From contig CAJNOJ010000187.1 in NCBI GenBank assembly GCA_905250025.1, forward strand, positions 62,001 to 126,000: a stretch of 64,000 bases of DNA. Reading direction: 5' to 3'. This document shows, one piece after another, positions 34,792 through 62,198 of the stretch. Each line of letters starts with the position of its first letter. The first letter of the stretch is position 1. The DNA is from Adineta ricciae (lineage: Eukaryota; Rotifera; Eurotatoria; Adinetida; Adinetidae). A model generated the notes under the pieces. It was not told the origin of the DNA, made no database searches, and saw nothing but the letters and a program-made list of their open reading frames with translations. The position numbers were made by a program, and so were the translations under genes.

Positions 34792-36959
34792 TTAATCATC
34801 GGAAAGATTTTCAATTTCGATTGGCTCGACACGGTCAGCCATTTGAAAATGGAATATTCGCGAGAAAAAGTAAAACTGTCCGTCTAAGCTACGTCGAATA
34901 TTTTCAGCTTTTCGAAAGCCATGTTGTTCACCGTCAAAAAGAACATAAGCAACCGGAAGATGTTTTTCACGTAAAGCATTCACCATAATCTCCGCTTGAC
35001 TCGGTAGAACAATCTTGTCTTCAGAACCTTGAAAGAATATGATTGGTTTTGAGACCTTCTTCACATGAGTCATCGGCGAACGTTCAATGTAAATATCTCG
35101 TTGCGCCGGATAATCACCGACTAACCGATCGAGATAACGCGATTCGAATTTGTGCGTATCTTTGGCGAGTAATTCTAAATCACTAACACCATAATGGGAT
35201 GCGCCAGCAGAGAAGAAATCGTACATTGTCAATGCACATAATGTAGTGTATCCACCAGCTGAACCACCATCGATAGTTAAGCGATTTCTGTCAGCTTTAT
35301 TTTGTTGAACGAGATATTCTGCACCCGCAATGGCGTCCTGAACATCGTAGATTCCCCAATGATCTTTCAAACTATCACGAAACTTCCGTCCGTAGCCAGT
35401 CGAACCTCGATAATTAACATCGAGTAAGGCAAAGCCACGTGATGTCCAATATTGTATTCGAAGATTGAACGCACTTGTTGTGGCTGCTGTCGGACCACCA
35501 TGGGTGCGAACAAGTAACGGTGGAAGCTCAGTTGTACTTGACGGCAATGGATAATCGTCGTTTTTGGGTGGATAATAAATACCATAGGCAATTTCATTGC
35601 CTGTTTTAAAAGTAATCATTTCTGGTACAGATAAATAACGTGGATCGATCGTGATATTCGTTGAACGAAATAAAACATTTTTTGTATTTGTCTCAAAATT
35701 GTATTCAACCACTTCAGCTGGTTTTACTGCAGACGAACCAACGAAATAAACAGTTTGTTTATTGACTCGAACTGATCGAATATCAGTGTATTCTTCAGTT
35801 GCTGTTAAAGGTGTTGACTTCTTGGTTTGAACATCAATTCGACATAGTTTAGCAATGCCATTCTTCCAATAAACGCTCACCAAATTACTATTGGAATCGA
35901 ATCCATAATAAGTTCCAGCGAATACCCACGAGGGTCCGCCAAATTCTGCTTGGTCGTCATAAACATGTTCAACATTTTGCCCATCGACACTTGTTCGATA
36001 AATATTCCACCAATTATTCTTATCGCTAACAAAATAGATAAATTTTCCATCAGGTGACCATTCTGGTTGCAAGATAGATTCGTCTATTTGGCCAAATAAT
36101 TTCTTTTTGTTAATCAATGATGAATTGTCTTCATTACTAAATTCTCCAATCCATAATTCAGTTTGGTCCCATGGCATATTAGGATGATTCCAACAAATCC
36201 AGACTAGATATCGTCCATCGGGACTAATACGTGGTGAAGAATAAAAATCGTAACCCGAAGCTAATGTGACGATGGATGAATCGTTCAATGACACGCCGGC
36301 AATCGAATTCTGAACATCATGTTCACCTTGATGAACTTCATGAACACAGACTAAACGTTTTCGAAACGAATCCACGGTATAATCTGCGTAGCGTAAAGAC
36401 GCATTCTCGGATTGTTCCGTTATCGGTACTGGTACGTTGTTTTCTTTCGTATTAATTTGATAAAGACGTTGGTCAGCGAAATTCGAAAAATAAACCACAT
36501 CTTCCTTAACTAGATAAGACCCACCACCATATTCATGAACGCGTGTACGTGCGTTGAACGGTTGTTCGAGAATATCTTTCTGAAGCGGTTGTTTATTCGA
36601 GCAAATAACATATCGACCGCTTTCCGACGGACGAAGTTCAAGCCAGTAGGCATTACCATTTTCATCCAGACGAACTTCCGACGGTGTAATCGTATTTTCA
36701 ACAATCAATGCCGAACTTATCGGTGATAACCATGTCCCGTATGACATTGTTCTATAAGAATGTGTCGTTAAAGTTTCGTAATTTAATCTAAAAAATTGAA
36801 TTGAAAAACGATGATGTAAGGATGTGTCGACTACCTGTTGTCGAGGCAATCGCTTTCGTATTCTTTACGCGCAGAGCATTGGAGCAAAGGAGTTTTATCG
36901 TCATAACAATAATGATAGACAATAAGTGATAAGAATAACGATGATAACGATAAAAGCAT
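34792..36959 (-). CDS. Secreted S9-family serine peptidase (prolyl oligopeptidase/dipeptidyl aminopeptidase type)
   Basis: Two minus-strand exons (36959-36835, 36787-34792) joined by a 47-bp intron give 706 aa. Exon 1 encodes a signal peptide (MLLSLSSLFLSLIVYHYCYD). A seven-bladed beta-propeller region follows (YSSPRISPDGRYLVWICWN, LQPEWSPDGKFIYFVSDKN). The C-terminal alpha/beta hydrolase has Ser551 in GGSAGGY, Asp632 in GSEDKIV and His664 in GEQHGF, a complete triad. Oxyanion-side motifs LLVRTHGGPTA and NYRGSTGYGR are also present. The overall type matches the DPP/acylaminoacyl peptidase group common in bacteria, plants and fungi. If exon 1 is not used, the internal ATG at 36747 would give a cytosolic form. 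The remaining 1995-nt coding exon has no introns, unlike most neighbours. Confidence 0.9.
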
Positions 36960-44940: not shown

Positions 44941-45478
44941 ATGTTCGCCATTCTTCTCCTCTCAGTTTACACTTTTGCATTAGTTATCAGTTCTTCAGTT
45001 GACACTGAAGTCAATCCAAAGCATCTCGATGGAAAACAATATACAATTAAAGGTGTTGACACAGTTTACACCCAGCACGTTTCGAATAATGGTAAGACTC
45101 CTTGAACTCGGACTAAATCGTATGTACAAGAGGGAGACTTCTTCCTAAATAGATCATTGCACAGTTGAAGTTAATGGTCAAGATGAAAGTGTTCAAATGT
45201 TGACTGAAGGTGAAATTATCAAACTAAAGAACAAATGGTTCAAAGTTGAAGATTGTCGATTAAATCGTGCGTATGTCGCTGAATGTGGTTCGAAGTTATT
45301 TCATCAAATGCGCGAACTTGTTTGCTCGTATACGACCGAACATTCGACGAAAAAAGTTCTCAAACGTCGACAAATCAACGCTGAATTGATCAAATCACTA
45401 GATCAAGTCTATTACGGTCTGTGCTGTAAAACTGCTTGTACAGTATCGGAATTGCTTAAATATTGTCCGGAAAAATAG
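44941..45478 (+). CDS. Insulin-like peptide precursor 1 with extra N-terminal cysteine module
   Basis: Two exons (44941-45091, 45153-45478) give 158 aa. Residues 1-19 are a signal peptide (MFAILLLSVYTFALVISSS). Residues about 31-85 form a module with Cys53 and Cys85 (GKQYTIKGVDTVYTQHV..DHCTVE...KWFKVEDC). The B-chain-like segment is Cys95-Gly96...Cys108 (CGSKLFHQMRELVC) with 12 intervening residues, one more than human insulin. A basic site KRR (121-123) follows, then the A-chain CCKTACTVSELLKYC (Cys141, 142, 146, 155), which matches the canonical CCx3Cx8C. All six insulin cysteines plus two extra are present. The product is a likely secreted hormone or growth factor for an insulin/IGF-type receptor. 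Tandem neighbour of gene 2. Confidence 0.88.
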
Positions 45479-46428
45479 TTTGTGACAAGAAGAAAGAAGC
45501 AATCCAAGAGAAAGAAATTCCTTCTAATTTTTTCTTTGTATTTTTCGATGTTCTCAACAAATATATATTCACTGGCATTTGATCTCTTCTTATTGTGTTG
45601 TTTTTCCTCTTCACTTATGTACAAAAACATTAATATAATAGAAAAAGAACTTCTTCTAACGTCTTTCCGTGTTATATCTCTAGTTAATTACTTGAAAACA
45701 ACCAGATGGTTTCCCCAAGCCTCAGCAGACAAATAGAATCAATTTGTGCAAAAGCAAATTTCCATGCGGTCGATAAAACATTCTTCAAACTTCCAAATTC
45801 TTATCCACAAGGCCGTGAAGTACATTTGCAGATAAATTTGTCAGCGCTGTCGATTTAAAAAGTCTCCTGCATCTGTTCCATGATAAGAAATCCATGATAT
45901 GTGAAAAACTATGATCTGACTTAACTATTTGCTTATTGAAAATGTACACGGAAATGCACGGCAATATTGATATTTTCATCTGAGATAACGCGCTAAATTC
46001 CGGTCACAAACGATATAGGCTCTCTCTTTAATTTTAATTTAACATTAATATACGTAGGATTAGTTGAAAAAGAAATGGTGGTTTCTCCACGTTTCTTTCT
46101 CTGTCTTTTTTTTCAATGTTAACATTTCCTTTTTTTGAGAAATGAGCTAACATTTAGACATACATATAAATATTCAAACTTCTCTCAGCATTCAAACAGC
46201 AATAAAATTCTTGCAAGCAAATTTAACATTTAGCTCAGAGAGCGTTGGAAACATCATATCATGTAAGTTGATTTCTTTCTCTCTCTCTCTCTCCCTCCTT
46301 CTTTCTCTCGTTATCCATTTCTCTTTCACTTTAATGATAATCATATATTTAAAAGTCTGTTTTGCAATTCTCTTCTAGTGTGCTAGTTCACATTTTATTT
46401 GAAAATCATTAATAACGCAAGCATCATT
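45479..46428. other. Interval between the two insulin-like genes, with 5' UTR intron of gene 2
   Basis: The first part is the 3' UTR of gene 1. A probable 5' UTR intron of gene 2 runs from GTAAGTTG at 46263 to TCTTCTAG ending at 46378 and contains a CT repeat (about 46276-46293). A minus-strand 64-codon frame at 45785-45979 has no support. Confidence 0.45.
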
Positions 46429-47037
46429 ATGAATACGTACATCCCACTATGCCTCTTAGCACTGGTTGCTTTTAGTCGAACAATGCCTACAATTGATGAT
46501 GATCTGATCAATTTTAATCATAATTTCAATTACACCGATAGTCATCATAATGAAAATCAAGGATCTCTTCGTGAGAAAATTCTACAGGCCGATAAACAAT
46601 ATCAAGCGAAAGTGTTACGCCATCTTCATTATATTCTGGATGGAAAAATTTATCATATCAAAGCAGCTGGTGTATCTTATCGACAACGTTTACGTGAAGA
46701 TCAATGCGTTGTCGAATATGATGGTAAATATTTGAATGAAAACAGTGTCATACAATTGCGAAAGAAACTCTATCGAGTGGAAAACTGTTTGTTAGAACGA
46801 GTTTTTCATGCATGTGGTCCGAATTTATTGTTAATGTTAAATGTTGTCTGTCGAGTTGTTGAACAACATCAAATAACAACCCCGATACCAGCGCTTCATC
46901 GTCAAACAACTTCAACATCGAAAGATTTTCTTCATCGAATATCTCCGCGGGCCAGTAAAACACCTCGAGTGATTACTGAATCTTGTTGTGAAAATCTTTG
47001 TACTATCTCTGAGTTGACACGATACTGTCATCGATAA
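46429..47037 (+). CDS. Insulin-like peptide precursor 2 with extra N-terminal cysteine module
   Basis: A single coding exon of 202 aa. Residues 1-18 are a signal peptide (MNTYIPLCLLALVAFSRT). The module at about 71-120 (DGKIYHIKAAGVSYRQRL..DQCVVE...KLYRVENC, Cys93 and Cys120) aligns by eye with that of gene 1. The B-like segment CGPNLLLMLNVVC (Cys129-Cys141) has the canonical 11 intervening residues. The A-like segment is CCENLCTISELTRYC (Cys186, 187, 191, 200). The 44-residue connecting region has single Arg sites (LHR, SPR, TPR) but no dibasic pair, so processing may be monobasic or absent, as in IGF. It lacks the coding intron of gene 1, and its N-terminal spacer is longer. A likely secreted paralogue. 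Confidence 0.88.
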   Translation: MNTYIPLCLLALVAFSRTMPTIDDDLINFNHNFNYTDSHHNENQGSLREKILQADKQYQAKVLRHLHYILDGKIYHIKAAGVSYRQRLREDQCVVEYDGKYLNENSVIQLRKKLYRVENCLLERVFHACGPNLLLMLNVVCRVVEQHQITTPIPALHRQTTSTSKDFLHRISPRASKTPRVITESCCENLCTISELTRYCHR

Positions 47038-49134: not shown

Positions 49135-50501
49135 TTACATCAGTTTCAATCCTGTGCGTGTTCGTTTATAGTACCGTTGTGCTAATGAATTGATAATTGA
49201 AGCAACAAAATATATAATCATTCCAGCAACAAAGAAATTAAATATTCGAGTCAATAAGGATATTCTTTGCACATGACCAGTCAAATTCTCGCCTGGTTTT
49301 CGATGCATTTTGCCCTTTTGTTCCTGTAGCCAATCTTTAAATGGTGTTTGTAGTAATCGACCATAATATGGAATATGTTTCATCCAGCGAATGATTCTTT
49401 CCACGTGATGTTCGCTGAAGAGAAAGATGATAAATACTGTTTGAATGCTCATTTTAATCAATGCTTTGCCAATGATTGTTGCTAAAAAGAATGTCCAAAA
49501 CGAGATAAGAAAATAGCCACATGTGATGCCAGCTAAGTCAAACAAGGGATTTGGAATGCTTGCGCATAAAAGTATGCCTAAAAATCCGATACGTTTGATT
49601 AAACGGAAGATTAAGTACCGAACACGTTCGAATAAGGTCAAATTTTTTAAGTTATGTGTTTCCTCTGTCTTCAGCAATTGTTCAAAGTCACCTAATTCTT
49701 CGTCATCATCCATATCGGTATTTCCCAAACGTGCCGCACGCGCCATAAAGTACGGAGGTAATTCACCGAATGCCGTACCTAGACCCCAACAGAAAGCTTC
49801 TAGTTTAACTTTCCATAGAATTTTCCAGAAAGAGATTGTTCCGGTTTCCAGTAGATCAGTCAGAATTGTCTCGTTCGCATTGATTAACATTCGTGTTGTC
49901 GTTGTTGTACTCGTAGTCGGTGGGCAAACGATTTCATTAGGGTAAGGTGGACGAGGGAATTTGATTGATCCACATTCATATGCTGCTAGAGTAACCTGAG
50001 CAATAAATGGACCGAGATAAAGGAGAAATGTATGTAAACCCGTGCCAAGACCAACTGACGAGGCAATGCCAAGACCAAGCCAATATAATGCAGATAGAAG
50101 TAAACTTTCTACAAGTTGAATACTTGTTTGATGCGAACCTTCAACATTATAAATGAGCAGAAGAGAAAGACCGATTGCTACTGATAGAATCAACGTTTTC
50201 CTATAGGATATCAAACGTTTGAAACTAAGATGACTCAGATAAAGCAGTTCAAGTATACAATAATGTAGTGTGCGTATGGGTTGTCTCCAGAGAACGATCT
50301 TAGCTGTTTCATGACGTAACATTTCTTTTTGAGATTTTTTTAAATGGACTTTTTCAGGCGTGAAGTTTGATTGTCTAAATGGCATCAACGACAAAACTAA
50401 AGATTGAAAATGCACTGGATTACATACGAATTTAAAGTTGCCGAAGATTTGTCTCGTTTTCGTTTACGCTGACGATTTGAAGATGATGCTGATGAAGCCA
50501 T
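49135..50501 (-). CDS. VMP1: Vacuole membrane protein 1 (VMP1)
   Basis: Two minus-strand exons (50501-50428, 50374-49135) give 437 aa, versus ~406 in human. VMP1 is an ER multi-pass phospholipid scramblase needed for autophagosome formation and lipoprotein release. Landmarks: basic N-terminus NRQRKRKRDKSS; LWRQPIRTLHYCILELL; membrane segments near LILSVAIGLSLLLIYNV and ALYWLGLGIASSVGLGTGLH; and the VTT/DedA core EAFCWGLGTAFGELPPYFMA. Then RIGFLGILLCASIPNPLFDL and AGITCGYFLISFWTFFLATI follow. A Thr-rich patch (PPTTSTTTTTRM) and an acidic loop (MDDDEELGDFEQLL) account for part of the extra length. The C-terminus lacks a dilysine signal and ends TRTGLKLM. Confidence 0.95.
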
Positions 50502-53465: not shown

Positions 53466-53674
53466 AAATCTGATACGAAACGAGAATGCCGTTCATTGAT
53501 TTCTACGTACGACAGAAAAACACTATGAAACCAAGTCAAATTTCTTTTCTTATGAACTCTGTCAATCTATTTTCATTTCTATAGATAAAAACAGAATATA
53601 TATATATATATATAAAGATAATTTCGAATGTATAAATCAACTTCTCAGATAATATTTCTAGATTTTTCGAACCT
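53466..53674. other. Short same-strand intergenic interval
   Basis: 209 bp between AMSH and NDST, including a TA repeat (about 53596-53615). ATATTTCTAG ends 14 nt upstream of the NDST ATG and could be a 5' UTR or spliced-leader acceptor. Confidence 0.4.
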
Positions 53675-56600
53675 ATGGTTCGTTGTACATTGAAACGTGC
53701 AATTAAAGCACTGAGTTTTTGTCTGATTTTCGTCATCATTTGTACATACTATTCTTCTCAATCTGTTCCAAATAAAAATTTTCTCCAACGAAAATCTTTG
53801 TCAATTTTCATTCTCTCATCAACACGCTCGAAAACAATTCAACGCATTAGTCTCTTTTTCAACGAACTTCGCCTGAATTACGTTGAATATCGAAGAATTG
53901 ATGAACATTTTTACGAAAACGTTAAGACTCTGTTACCAAGATTAATCATTCTTGATTATCATCCTGATGAAAATCTTCGTTCAGTTATTAATCAATATGA
54001 AATTAAATTATTAATCTTATTGAATGCACAATGTACTGATTGTACAAAAGTTTCTTATTCGGAAATGTTATTTGAGAATGTCAGTTATCCAACAATGGAT
54101 TTCAATCGTGATGTATTGAAACCGGTGATTCACACAACGAAAAGTCCATTTCGACTCGTTCAACATAACAAGATCATTCAAATTTTACGATTCGACACAG
54201 TCTTGCCATACTTTCACCATCAACAATTCGAACGAAAAACTAAATGTTTTGTCTTTCGGACAACCGACAATCATCGAACCGATACGATTGTTTATGTGCA
54301 TAGTCGAACATCTTCTGAAAAATTGAAATTATTGTTCGAATACCACGAGAAACAACTATATTTATCTGAATGTCTCTTTGATTATTGGTTTATCTGGCCG
54401 GTGATGATGGATATAGTGCGATATTTAACTTCAAATGAATATGATTATCATGGATTGAAACGATATGTACAAGTTGATATTGATGATATCTTTTTAGGTG
54501 ATAAATCGAATGGTTATTTAATCTCGGATGATATTCAAGCACTGATTCGTTCACAATTATTTATTCAGAATTATATTGAAAATTTTCGATATCGATTGGG
54601 ATTTTCGGGTTATTACTATTCGAATTCTACGAATGAACATGCGAATGAAGCAAATCGTTTGTTAATGAGTAAGTTTCTTCTTTTTTTTTAAGATCGTTTT
54701 CTCTAGCGGGAAAAACCGTTCTAGACGAGAAAGATCGATTCACTTGGTTTCATCATACTTGGAAACATGAAAAATTAACAAATGTTACTAATAAAATTCT
54801 TTTAATCAGCTCGACGGAGACCAACATGGCGTTTGCACAAGTACTGATCTCTTTCGAACGACCAACGAATTGAAGACTTTTTTTTTCAGAAACATCAATT
54901 ACCATTGGATGAAAATTATGCTGTCGCACCTCATCATTCAGGAATCTATCCAATTAATCATATTGTTTACGATGTTTGGCATCGTTTCTTCAATTTCACT
55001 GTGACAAGTACAGAAAACTATCCCTATCATTATCAATTACCATCGGATCGTCGTGGTTTCATTTATCGAAATATTTCTGTAAGATCATCTTCGAGTTTCG
55101 AAAACAACCGACTTAATTCATGTGATTGAAGGTCTTACCGCGACGATCATGTGGATTGTATACAACTACGAGAAATTATACAACGTATCCAAATGGCAGT
55201 CATCGTTTAGAACGAATTTTAATGGGCGGAAGACTATTTCGAACGATATTAACAAATCCTGTAATTTAGTTGAATGTGGATTGTCAATTGATGAATGAAA
55301 ACTGTGTTTAGATCTCGATCTTTATGTCACATAATGTGAACTACGGTCATGATCGTATGGGTAATTACGTTTTCGCTAAACTGGTCTATTTAATTTCCAA
55401 ATGGACGAACATTCAATGGTCCAGGGATCTATCGTCATCTGAACTAGCCCGGAAATACTTTCATCATTTCTATCCCGAAGAACAAATGCCAATATTTACG
55501 GTAAGAACTTCAACAAAATTTGTTTTATAAGTTGTATGTGATTTAGAATCCATGTAGTGACCGAATTCTGATGAATCTTTGGAATGGAAATGATTCTCTG
55601 TGTACAACTTTTCCTCAGTTCATCATTGTCGGTCCACAAAAAACAGGTACGACTGCGTTGCATGCTATGCTATCTCAACATCCTGATCTCCGTCCGTCAC
55701 GAGCAATTTCGACAACATTCGAAGAAGTACAGTTCTTCAGCAATAATACGATCTATCTCAATGGAATCAACTGGTAAGACAATCGCCACGAACGAAAATC
55801 TCAAGATTCTACGTTATTCTTTCGCAGGTATTTGAATCAGTTCGATCCCGACGAACAATCAATGAACTTCGAGAAATCTGCAACTTATTTTGATTCGGCC
55901 GTCTCTATCAAACGGTTGAAAGCACTATTACCAAACATACGTTTGATAATGATGTTAACCGAACCTGGCCATCGTGCTTATTCGCGATATCAAGTAAGAT
56001 GTCAACAATAGACAAGGTTTACATAGACAAATCGATTAATTATAGATGGAAATATGTAAGTCAATATCATCCACGAGTTTGATTTGTTGGAGACAGATTT
56101 GCGAAGGTCAAGGCTATGTTGTCAGACAAGTGACAAGCTTGTCTTGAGGACAAATTCTTGATCATTGTGTAGTTTAGGACAGTTTAATCAAAAGCCAATA
56201 GCCTGAATGTCTGGTCAGCATCCGGCTTAACCTTCGCATTGCCTGCGTGTAATTAGTGTCTATCTTACAGTTATTTATAATTGAATTGTCTATGAAAACA
56301 AATGGAAACATTTGCATTGATGACTGAATAGAATATTTTCTTCTCCTTTAGCATGAAATTGCTCGAACAAATCGAACGATAACTTTTGATGAACTACTGA
56401 AAATGAAACATAAAGAAAACTCCGAGGATTTTCGTTTGAAGCAACGCTGCCTTCAACCAGGACATTATGCTGAACATGTTCGTAATTGGTTAAAGTATTT
56501 CTCATCAAAACAAGTAATTCCTCGTTGGTATTGGAAGCTCTGGAATAACAGGAGATTTTTCTAGATTTACATAATTGATGGTGAAGCATTTCGCCAAGAT

Positions 56601-59896: not shown

Positions 59897-62198
59897 ATGG
59901 ATTATTCAATTGTCTCCTATATTCTTATCATACTTATTCAACTAACTTACACCTTCGAATTCGATGATGATCATGATGACGATAGACAGCTGGTCCTACA
60001 ATCATGTAAGTATGATTTTTGATCGAGATTATCTAACGAGTATTCGGAAAAAGAAGACAAATAATTAGTGAAGTTTGCGACACCTCACGAATAAACAATT
60101 CTTTTCGAAGTATTGTTTATAGTATATATCTTGCATAATCCTCTCTCGCGATATCCTATCATAGATTATCCAATTCATCGAACTACTATTATCTTAGCGA
60201 CCAGATGAGATAAATCTAATGATTAGATTTGATTACCCTCGTTTGTCTTTGTGTAGAAATGATTGTTTATGCATACTGATGTATCGGAACGATTTTTGAA
60301 ATTTTTTTTTTCATCTCATCAACAATCTGTCGCGAATCATTATCGATAACATTCTTTAATGAGCCAAGGTTGAAATAATGAATATTCATATTTGACTTCT
60401 TTTTTTTATTATTAATGATTGTTACGTGAAATACTCGTAATATGTTTTCGATATTACTCGAATGTGTATACAAAAGGAAACGATTGTGATTTGTCAATGT
60501 CGATACGTTGTTGTGCGCATAGGGAAAGAAATTATATGACAACAGTTGCACATCGAGAGAAAGGGAAAGATCGATGTACTTCTTCTGATCGGATGAAGTA
60601 TTTTTTTTCCTTTGAATTTCTCTGTTCCTTGAATCTGATGTCATTATGTTGTATTCTATCGAATAGTATCATTAATTGAATGATTTTTTCCTTTTCTCAA
60701 GGTTAATCGATGTTTTGACATGAGAAAATATCGTTCGTGGCGGTTCGATTTCGAGTCGAAAGATGTTATATAAGATTGAAATGTTTCGTAATTTTCGAAG
60801 TATGAATTTTGTCCAAGAAGAAAAGGATAATGAAAGTCGTAGGACTATAATTTTCGATAATAACTAGTGTTTTGTTTAGCTTTACCAATATCGGAGCCGA
60901 TTCATCATTTAACTTCATCTGTATTCGATACTTTATATCAATCGAATGTAACATTTACATCATTTCTGTTTCCTGATCAAACAATTAATCTGGACAGTCT
61001 CGGAATCTCAAGTATTGATCCAGATGCGTTTATAAATAGTCCAGTACCGATAACAACAATCATTTTATCGGCCAATTATCTTTCCGATCTCCCGGATGAC
61101 GTTTTTCATACATTTAGTTCAACATTGATCAATCTCAATCTTCAATACAATCAATTTCATTCGTTAAGAAAGAGTTCGTTTCTCCGACATTTAGAATTTC
61201 TTCGTACACTTGACTTAAGTAAAAACCAATTCGATGAATTACATAAACAAGACTTTACAGGTTTAAAACGCTTAGAAACATTAATCTTACGCGAAAATAA
61301 ACTAACCAATCTATCGCCTGCTCTCTTTATTCGTTGTCGAACAATCACGACACTCGATCTTTCAGATAATCAAATCTCTCACATTGACCCAAACGCCTTC
61401 CGTTCATTGTATCGTTTGAAAATTCTCCTTCTCAGCAACAATCCGTTAAGGCAACGTTCATTAACAACTCACCTGTTAGAACCGCTGAAAAACCTCGAAT
61501 ATTTCGATCTTGAAAACACTCAACTCGACGATCTTCCTCCTTTTTTGTTCATCTCGAATCAACGCTTACAATCAATTAAATTACGACGGAATAATTTCCA
61601 AACCGCCTTATCTGATTCTACTCATAGTTTACAACGAACATTCTGTCGTGCACATTCGTTAATTGAAATCGATCTTGTTAGCACACATCTGCGTACATTA
61701 GATGTTTGTACTTACGATCAACTTCCATCATTACGACGATTGTATTTAATGAACAATCCGTTGCATTGTTCGTGCGATCTATTTTATTTGAAATATGGAG
61801 ACATTTACCGGGTTTTAGTCACAGACGATAATGAAAATATCGATTTGTATCTCGATCGATGGATTTCAAGGCCAGAGCTTCGCCGTCATTTGGAGAAATC
61901 TCATGCGCGTGGTGATTTCCATCGTTTACCGATTGAACTCTCGTTATTCGCACGATGTGCAACACCGAAACAATGGTTCGGTCGAGAAGTGGGAAATATA
62001 TCAGGAATATTCACTCAATGTCAACAACGATGGTTAATGATTGAAGAAGAATGTCATAATTATTGTCAATTCGATACGACAAGTTCAACTTCCACAGTGA
62101 CACTCGACGAATTAACATCAGATTTCCATCAAACATTTGTTCATACGTATTTTATTCGATTATATGTATTTGTTCTTTCGTTTTTGTTCATGAACTAA
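59897..62198 (+). CDS. Secreted or GPI-anchored leucine-rich-repeat protein
   Basis: Exon 1 (59897-60005) encodes a signal peptide (MDYSIVSYILIILIQLTYTF) and an acidic stretch. After an 874-bp intron, exon 2 (60880-62198) completes 475 aa; exon 2 has no usable ATG near its start, which is why the distant first exon is required. There are about eight LRRs (FLRTLDLSKNQFDELHKQDF, TITTLDLSDNQISHIDPNAF, RLKILLLSNNPL). An LRRCT cap follows with LYLMNNPLHCSCDLFYLKYG and downstream Cys (FARCATPK, FTQCQQ). The end is hydrophobic (YFIRLYVFVLSFLFMN), suggesting GPI addition or a C-terminal anchor. This class mediates extracellular recognition; the partner is unknown. AATAAA occurs near 62272. Confidence 0.8.

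Follow-up and report, generated by a model that had tools for sequence, protein, structure and literature searches.

Two tandem insulin-like genes with an additional two-cysteine module

The window, that is the whole 64-kb stretch of DNA analysed here, covers positions 62001-126000 of contig CAJNOJ010000187.1 (C187) of the bdelloid rotifer Adineta ricciae and carries two insulin-like genes in tandem on the + strand, here denoted gene 1 and gene 2. Between the signal peptide and the B chain, each encodes a module with two cysteines of its own, which is the subject of this work. Gene 1 (44941-45091 joined to 45153-45478) translates into a product of 158 amino acids with cysteines at positions 53, 85, 95, 108, 141, 142, 146 and 155. 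Gene 2 (46429-47037) is a single open frame of 202 amino acids with cysteines at positions 8 (in the signal peptide), 93, 120, 129, 141, 186, 187, 191 and 200. Both products contain the B-chain pattern C-x11/12-C and the A-chain pattern CC-x3-C-x8-C. An earlier note on this DNA had claimed complete insulin cysteine patterns for both genes and extra cysteine pairs at 53/85 in gene 1 and 93/120 in gene 2; the translations agree exactly on the patterns and on the positions of the extra pairs. The parts of the two genes, all on the + strand, are as follows.

44941..45091, +, gene 1, first coding exon, with signal peptide, a short spacer and module arm (GKQYTIKGVDTVYTQ); from the translation, with a similar N-terminus in the deposited proteins P0089-P0091
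45092..45152, +, gene 1 intron of 61 bases, phase 1, GT-AG, directly 5' of the first module cysteine; P0089-P0093, deposited homologues, back the splice
45153..45478, +, gene 1, second coding exon, with core module, then B region, KRR-bearing C-peptide, A region and stop; from the translation (locus L015)
45158..45256, +, gene 1 core module, Cys53-Cys85; from the translation and homology searches
45257..45337, +, gene 1 B-chain region (Cys95, Cys108); from the translation
45371..45475, +, A-chain region of gene 1, behind KRR (Cys141, Cys142, Cys146, Cys155); from the translation
46429..46482, +, gene 2 predicted signal peptide, which starts hydrophobic and is helical in the AlphaFold2 model
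46483..46623, +, gene 2 propeptide, of low conservation and mostly low confidence; from column entropy, substitution rates and model confidence
46639..46698, +, gene 2 module arm (GKIYHIKAAGVSYRQR), two predicted beta strands; from conservation and AlphaFold2
46705..46788, +, gene 2 core module, Cys93-Cys120; model confidence of 94-96 in the full model, cysteine conservation
46789..46878, +, gene 2 B-chain region: predicted strand 121-126, then B helix 131-150, with Cys129 and Cys141; from Pfam and AlphaFold2
46969..47037, +, gene 2 A-chain region (Cys186, Cys187, Cys191, Cys200) and stop; from the translation, Pfam and AlphaFold2

The gene 2 product matches the Pfam insulin family PF00049 (E 1.3e-7, 32.9 bits, curated cut-off 23), and its AlphaFold2 model contains the insulin fold. 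Despite its complete cysteine pattern, gene 1 falls under the same cut-off (E 0.33, 12.4 bits); we placed it in the insulin family because of that pattern and its homology to gene 2-type proteins. The spliced gene 1 product of 158 amino acids resembles the deposited A. ricciae protein P0089, with 92% identity.

The module defines a family of insulin-like proteins in bdelloids

When the modules were compared without B or A chain, those of the gene 1 type and the gene 2 type proved homologous (hhalign probability 98.6%, E 5.7e-16; the gene 1-type rows were P0089 and its relatives, the window's own copy not among them), which bears out the earlier proposal that the two genes have the module in common. 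Protein searches, which need exact shared words, retained 88 of 165 candidates with the gene 2 query and 24 of 29 with the gene 1 query, and a search with a nine-row profile matched 136 of 867 proteins, of which 120 were listed. Among the listed matches that bear a species name we found only Adineta vaga, Adineta steineri, A. ricciae and Rotaria species, and no module-bearing insulin from outside the bdelloids (120 of 136 profile matches; exact-word search); the majority of protein matches come from environmental assemblies.

The module, B-chain and A-chain patterns occur together in 157 of the 171 proteins of our set, which includes the window's own gene 2 product (P0001). Eleven proteins start after the first module cysteine and three are without a clean A or B pattern, so the cysteine pair is present in every protein long and clean enough to show it (157/157). 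The second module cysteine is found in all 168 proteins whose A and B patterns are clean; it lies 9 residues before the first B cysteine in 146 and 10 residues in 22. The two module cysteines are spaced by 27 in 142 of 157 proteins, and P0145 has one further cysteine within the module. Because the queries themselves carry the module, these counts show its conservation and not the frequency of module-free insulins.

In the A. ricciae genome the module occurs at a minimum of 15 loci, and a search with the core module alone returned exactly these. Gene 1-type loci lie on C187, C5 and C32, each adjoined by a gene 2-type locus, and nine further genes form a short type (two each on C294 and C248, one each on C75, C282, C36, C55 and C107). 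Short-type proteins usually have their core module (Cys-x26-Cys) from about residue 31 on, just behind the signal peptide, and lack the arm that precedes it in genes 1 and 2 (GKxYxIK...YxQ); the core is therefore the constant part, and the arm is specific to the branches of gene 1 and gene 2. Comparison by hhalign shows homology between the cores of the short and gene 2 types (E 1.2e-13). Thus the module that the earlier note had described for the tandem pair is indeed present in both genes, but it is not confined to them and its arm is not general. At its true distance the arm was found in 86 of 88 gene 2-type, 7 of 14 gene 1-type and 1 of 55 short-type proteins; six of the seven gene 1-type proteins without a match are open frames lacking exon 1, and in the seventh, P0094, the arm lies further upstream. 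A looser test (YxQ or FxQ up to 30 residues before the first module cysteine) was positive in 20 of 55 short-type proteins through FNQ-like letters of the signal peptide, and was rejected. The gene 1-type copy on C32 (L013, C32:361474-361773, -) is open across the expected intron, with extra residues inserted, and represents either an intron without a stop or an altered gene.

A tree of 36 rows separated the gene 1 type (8 rows) and the gene 2 type (12 rows), each at 100/100 and each with Adineta and Rotaria members, and did not resolve the short types (16 rows) as a single group; its root is arbitrary. Since all three types are present in Adineta and Rotaria, the module is older than the split of these genera. 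The A. vaga orthologues of genes 1 and 2 have consecutive locus tags (I4U23_021229 and I4U23_021230), indicating that the tandem pair is old too. Like gene 1, four short-type proteins tested missed the Pfam insulin cut-off. Among proteins with a UniRef name, all five of the gene 1 type are called 'uncharacterized' and 10 of 12 of the short type insulin-like.

The module is under purifying selection and shares an exon with the hormone

The ratio of nonsynonymous to synonymous substitution rates (dN/dS), taken over six pairs of A. ricciae copies, was 0.083 for the module, 0.066 for the A chain, 0.184 for the B chain and 0.479 for the C-peptide, with small counts (20.5 synonymous versus 8.5 nonsynonymous changes in the module; 5 versus 4 in the C294 pair). 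The arm gave 0.045 and the propeptide with signal (gene 2 residues 1-70) 0.371, both almost entirely from the gene 2 pair. Column entropy over 88 gene 2-type rows was 1.00 bit in the core module, 2.4 bits in propeptide and C-peptide (2.42 bits over gene 2 residues 19-69) and 0.4 bit in the A and B chains. Cys93 is kept in 103/103 and Cys120 in 112/112 rows with the column filled. Together these data demonstrate that the module is under purifying selection and behaves as a mature part of the protein, though one less rigid than the A and B chains.

Of the module-bearing genes viewed, gene 2 and the short types are open across the whole hormone, and the only coding intron of gene 1 precedes the first module cysteine. 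Hence the core module lies in the same exon as the hormone, no exon boundary separates its second cysteine from the B chain, and it could not be removed by exon skipping. Transcripts that splice the module out, a possibility raised in the earlier note, are therefore not expected from these gene models, which leave no skippable exon.

We scanned the proteins for processing sites, considering dibasic pairs only. None of 168 proteins has such a pair in the stretch from the second module cysteine to the first B cysteine, so the second module cysteine should stay on the B chain. A C-peptide with a dibasic pair was seen in 72/88 proteins of the gene 2 type, 12/14 of the gene 1 type and 50/55 of the short type. 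Unlike those 72, the window's own gene 2 has a C-peptide (46879-46968) without a dibasic site. Inside the module a basic pair is found in 87 of 88 gene 2-type proteins, against 1 of 14 gene 1-type and 6 of 55 short-type proteins. In gene 2 it is part of RKK at residues 111-113 (46759-46767), which occupies a hairpin turn between the predicted strands 107-110 and 113-118; at the equivalent turn gene 1 has KNK, and the short types viewed have KGK, RGK or KSK. The internal pair of the gene 2 type may serve for cleavage or may simply belong to a turn of the structure.

A predicted small beta-domain in the gene 2 module

AlphaFold2 was run on full-length gene 2 with 112 rows (the window gene and 111 of 112 proteins). 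The model has a predicted local distance difference test (pLDDT) of 93-96 over residues 71-130, with seven strands between residues 74 and 126 followed by the B helix at 131-150, and a predicted template modelling score (pTM) of 0.54 for the whole. The propeptide (pLDDT 47-59 in blocks from 21 to 70) and the C-peptide are of low confidence. Run alone (residues 66-130, 99 of the 171 proteins), the gene 2 module formed nearly identical strands with mean pLDDT 87.4 and pTM 0.69. These two runs predict a confident beta fold, which counters the view of the region as a disordered propeptide. The final strand of the beta unit, 121-126, consists of residues of the B-chain N-terminus, suggesting that module and hormone form one piece.

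The predicted fold resembles VWC subdomain 1, the fibronectin type I (FN1) domain and the E' module of VWF, at low scores but in repeated matches; its neighbours in the PDB are 2mhp, 1u5m, 5nir, 2cg6 and NEL entries. Foldseek against the PDB gave nothing at E 0.001 or better, with beta-hairpin repeat proteins abundant at low probability, and a viral fold library gave no match at E 0.001. The module profile found chance-level matches only among PDB sequences (best E 0.34).

In sequence the likeness to these domains disappears. SVWC domains have an eight-cysteine pattern, and FN1 domains four cysteines in two bonds. VWC domains have ten conserved cysteines, of which the first and fourth (C1-C4) bond within one domain and hold subdomain 1 (PMC6270503). 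The module, with two cysteines, contrasts with all of them. Pfam VWC (PF00093), SVWC (PF15430) and FN1 (PF00039) did not match the module-bearing proteins tested, whereas PF00093 matches 21 places elsewhere in the A. ricciae genome. The module profile likewise failed to match VWC, including the genome's own VWC domains (hhalign 0.5% and 0.07%). Cysteine count, Pfam and profile comparison thus give no support to membership of VWC or SVWC by sequence, a reading that we rejected, and of the VWC/SVWC resemblance suggested in the earlier note only the likeness of the predicted fold to VWC subdomain 1, at low scores, persists. No donor protein for the module was found in the A. ricciae genome, where five protein queries, two of them module-only, returned insulin-family loci apart from two weak matches (E 0.46 and 4.1).

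Conventional insulins and receptor loci of A. ricciae

The A. ricciae genome also encodes a conventional, module-free insulin in two copies (C163:72256-72608, -, L019; C209:72210-72562, -, L022), the first of which matches PF00049 with E 2.5e-10; the module-free insulin query gave one weak genome match (E 1.3). This pair carries a phase-1 intron in the C domain, a feature stated for all insulin genes in an ambulacrarian study (PMC8286064). The intron is absent from genes 1 and 2, and the other module loci viewed are open through the C domain, which would fit an intron-less copy as founder of the module-bearing family.

Insulin-receptor-type ectodomains, defined as places matching PF01030 genome-wide at E 0.001, were found at two loci (C4:924544, +, L025; C86:166704, -, L026). 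The C86 copy shows the L domain at E 1.8e-18 and the furin-like region at E 1.3e-11. The insulin-like loci found, 15 module-bearing and two module-free, therefore number 17 against two receptor-type loci, the 15 and the 17 being lower bounds.

Other genes in the window

Elsewhere in the window we noticed a single open frame of 690 amino acids of the prolyl-oligopeptidase family (Peptidase_S9; 34795-36864, -), a possible candidate for horizontal transfer, and a VTT-domain-like membrane protein scoring under the Pfam cut-off (49138-50463, -). On the + strand lie a portion of a gene of the heparan sulphate N-deacetylase type (HSNSD-CE; 53636-54688) and a leucine-rich-repeat protein (60864-62195). 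Searches for RNA families and tRNAs returned none in the 64-kb window.

Discussion

We consider it likely that these proteins constitute a secreted bdelloid insulin-like family in which the N-terminus of the B chain is extended by a small beta-domain with its own cysteine pair. The extra structured module beside the B chain, as first proposed in the earlier note, is supported by conservation, dN/dS, the missing dibasic site before the B chain and the two AlphaFold2 runs; its cysteine pairing, retention and function are inferred. Most likely the module is a retained extension of the B chain that closes its own disulphide and adds a second binding surface. The signal peptide would be removed from the precursor, the N-terminal propeptide of the gene 2 type would probably be cut off too, and the C-peptide would be excised where basic sites exist. 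The module cysteines would pair with one another, as neither the A nor the B chain has a cysteine to spare and the like-placed C1 and C4 of VWC form a pair. The mature hormone would then have four disulphides and consist of an A chain joined to a B chain lengthened, in gene 1, to about 100 residues. More tentatively, the insulin part could engage an insulin receptor kinase, and the module might provide a second surface through which the many ligands are distributed among receptors, binding proteins or extracellular matrix. A putative added binding surface is the most economical reading of the module.

The position of the module between signal peptide and B chain would also suit a propeptide or intramolecular chaperone that aids bonding of the insulin core in the secretory pathway and is then cleaved, and the internal basic pair conserved in the gene 2 type is in keeping with this. 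We regard such a role as unlikely, because a dibasic site after the second cysteine is missing throughout (168/168), after an internal cut that cysteine would remain on the B chain and so would the front half of the module, provided the two are bonded, the gene 1 and short types mostly do without the internal pair, and the dN/dS of the module is near that of the A chain and far under those of propeptide and C-peptide. The same basic pair, and the place of RKK between two strands of the model, could instead make the gene 2 subfamily a three-chain hormone, in which a convertase cuts the RKK turn while the module disulphide keeps the front peptide tethered to the B chain. Given that the turn takes other forms in gene 1 and the short types, so that its lysines may be structural, and that the sheet is predicted with high confidence, we rate this arrangement marginally below the chaperone.

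With one spare cysteine pair per molecule, the module cysteines might also pair between two molecules and yield a covalent dimer. VWF-type modules elsewhere can form inter-chain bonds. Self-association of VWF through a like bond is mentioned in PMC6270503. A dimer nevertheless appears improbable in view of the near-constant spacing of 27, a module that is predicted to fold alone, and the intra-domain nature of the like-placed VWC pair. An artefact from pseudogenes, misjoined exons or chance cysteines, to which the sub-threshold Pfam scores of gene 1 and the four short-type proteins might point, is scarcely credible, since the module is under purifying selection, occurs at 15 loci, is conserved in both Adineta and Rotaria and is present in deposited gene models; conservation and dN/dS refute a chance or pseudogene origin. 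The origin of the fold is another matter. By its predicted structure the module is closest to VWC subdomain 1, FN1 and VWF E', and common descent beyond this likeness stays a candidate. That the insulin gene captured a true reduced VWC subdomain 1 or FN1 domain, and not a look-alike, would agree with the fold neighbours and the C1-C4-like pair, but without a sequence signal or a donor in the A. ricciae genome it seems doubtful. Somewhat more plausible, yet still speculative, is a broader scenario in which bdelloids before the Adineta-Rotaria split fused insulin to a one-disulphide binding domain of VWC-subdomain-1/FN1 type, with the B-chain N-terminus as its last strand, and then expanded an 'armoured' family far beyond the conventional insulin, each member with a built-in module choosing receptor, carrier or matrix.

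To return to the retained B-chain extension, several of its attributes have precedents. In insulins of the dilp7/relaxin type, the B chain is prolonged at its N-terminus by a long and conserved F-domain, and their genes share a phase-2 intron with multinsulins, in addition to the C-domain phase-1 intron (PMC8286064); their F-domain is described there with no mention of a cysteine pair, and in contrast to them the one coding intron of gene 1, in phase 1, precedes the module and gene 2 lacks a coding intron. Octinsulins and four-disulphide multinsulins of ambulacrarians also have eight cysteines and four predicted disulphides (PMC8286064). In the bdelloid proteins both extra cysteines precede the B-chain pair, and the A chain has the plain four. 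In the molluscan SjILP, again with eight cysteines, an extra Cys48 lies N-terminal to the B-chain pair (Cys63) and bonds with Cys132, an extra cysteine of the A chain (motif CxCCx3Cx8C; PMC9221753), whereas the window genes have CCx3Cx8C only and a likely partner 27-33 residues upstream. Arthropod IGF resembles the bdelloid genes in that an insulin gene gained a disulphide-bearing extension, which is however C-terminal, arginine-rich and encoded in extra exons, as opposed to N-terminal, beta-rich and within the hormone exon (PMC7357564). VWC subdomain 1, FN1 and VWF E' offer about 35 residues of antiparallel beta sheet and, in VWC, the C1-C4 bond; against them stand 2 cysteines in place of 10 (VWC) or 4 (FN1), no sequence match and low fold scores. 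The conventional A. ricciae insulin on C163 and C209 shares the A and B chains and differs in having the C-domain phase-1 intron and no module.

The statement in the earlier note that no insulin family of this architecture had been described agrees with the titles, abstract openings and passages searched, in which we found no earlier account of a bdelloid insulin with such a module; it is tempered by the partial precedents of F-domain, octinsulins, molluscan insulins and arthropod IGF. Eight-cysteine insulins, long B-chain fronts and extra disulphide regions are each already known from these sources. What appears to be new is a predicted two-cysteine beta-module in the N-terminus of the B chain, spread through a large family, a combination absent from the literature searched. 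Rotaria socialis was included among the species mined for relaxin/insulin precursors in PMC11863921, and three Rotaria species were mined for prohormones in PMC6425005, so module-bearing bdelloid sequences may already be listed in the supplements of these papers. Gnathiferan peptide hormones in general have been described as undersampled (PMC8557429).

Sub-threshold Pfam scores and 'uncharacterized' names partly conceal the family. Insulin is among the best-studied hormone folds, and the N-terminus of its B chain lies near the receptor-binding surface. Bdelloids serve as models for ageing, desiccation survival and asexuality, for which insulin signalling is a first suspect. If the present reading is true, a folded domain at the front of the B chain, at 15 of 17 insulin-like loci facing two receptor loci, would be a new way to diversify insulin ligands.
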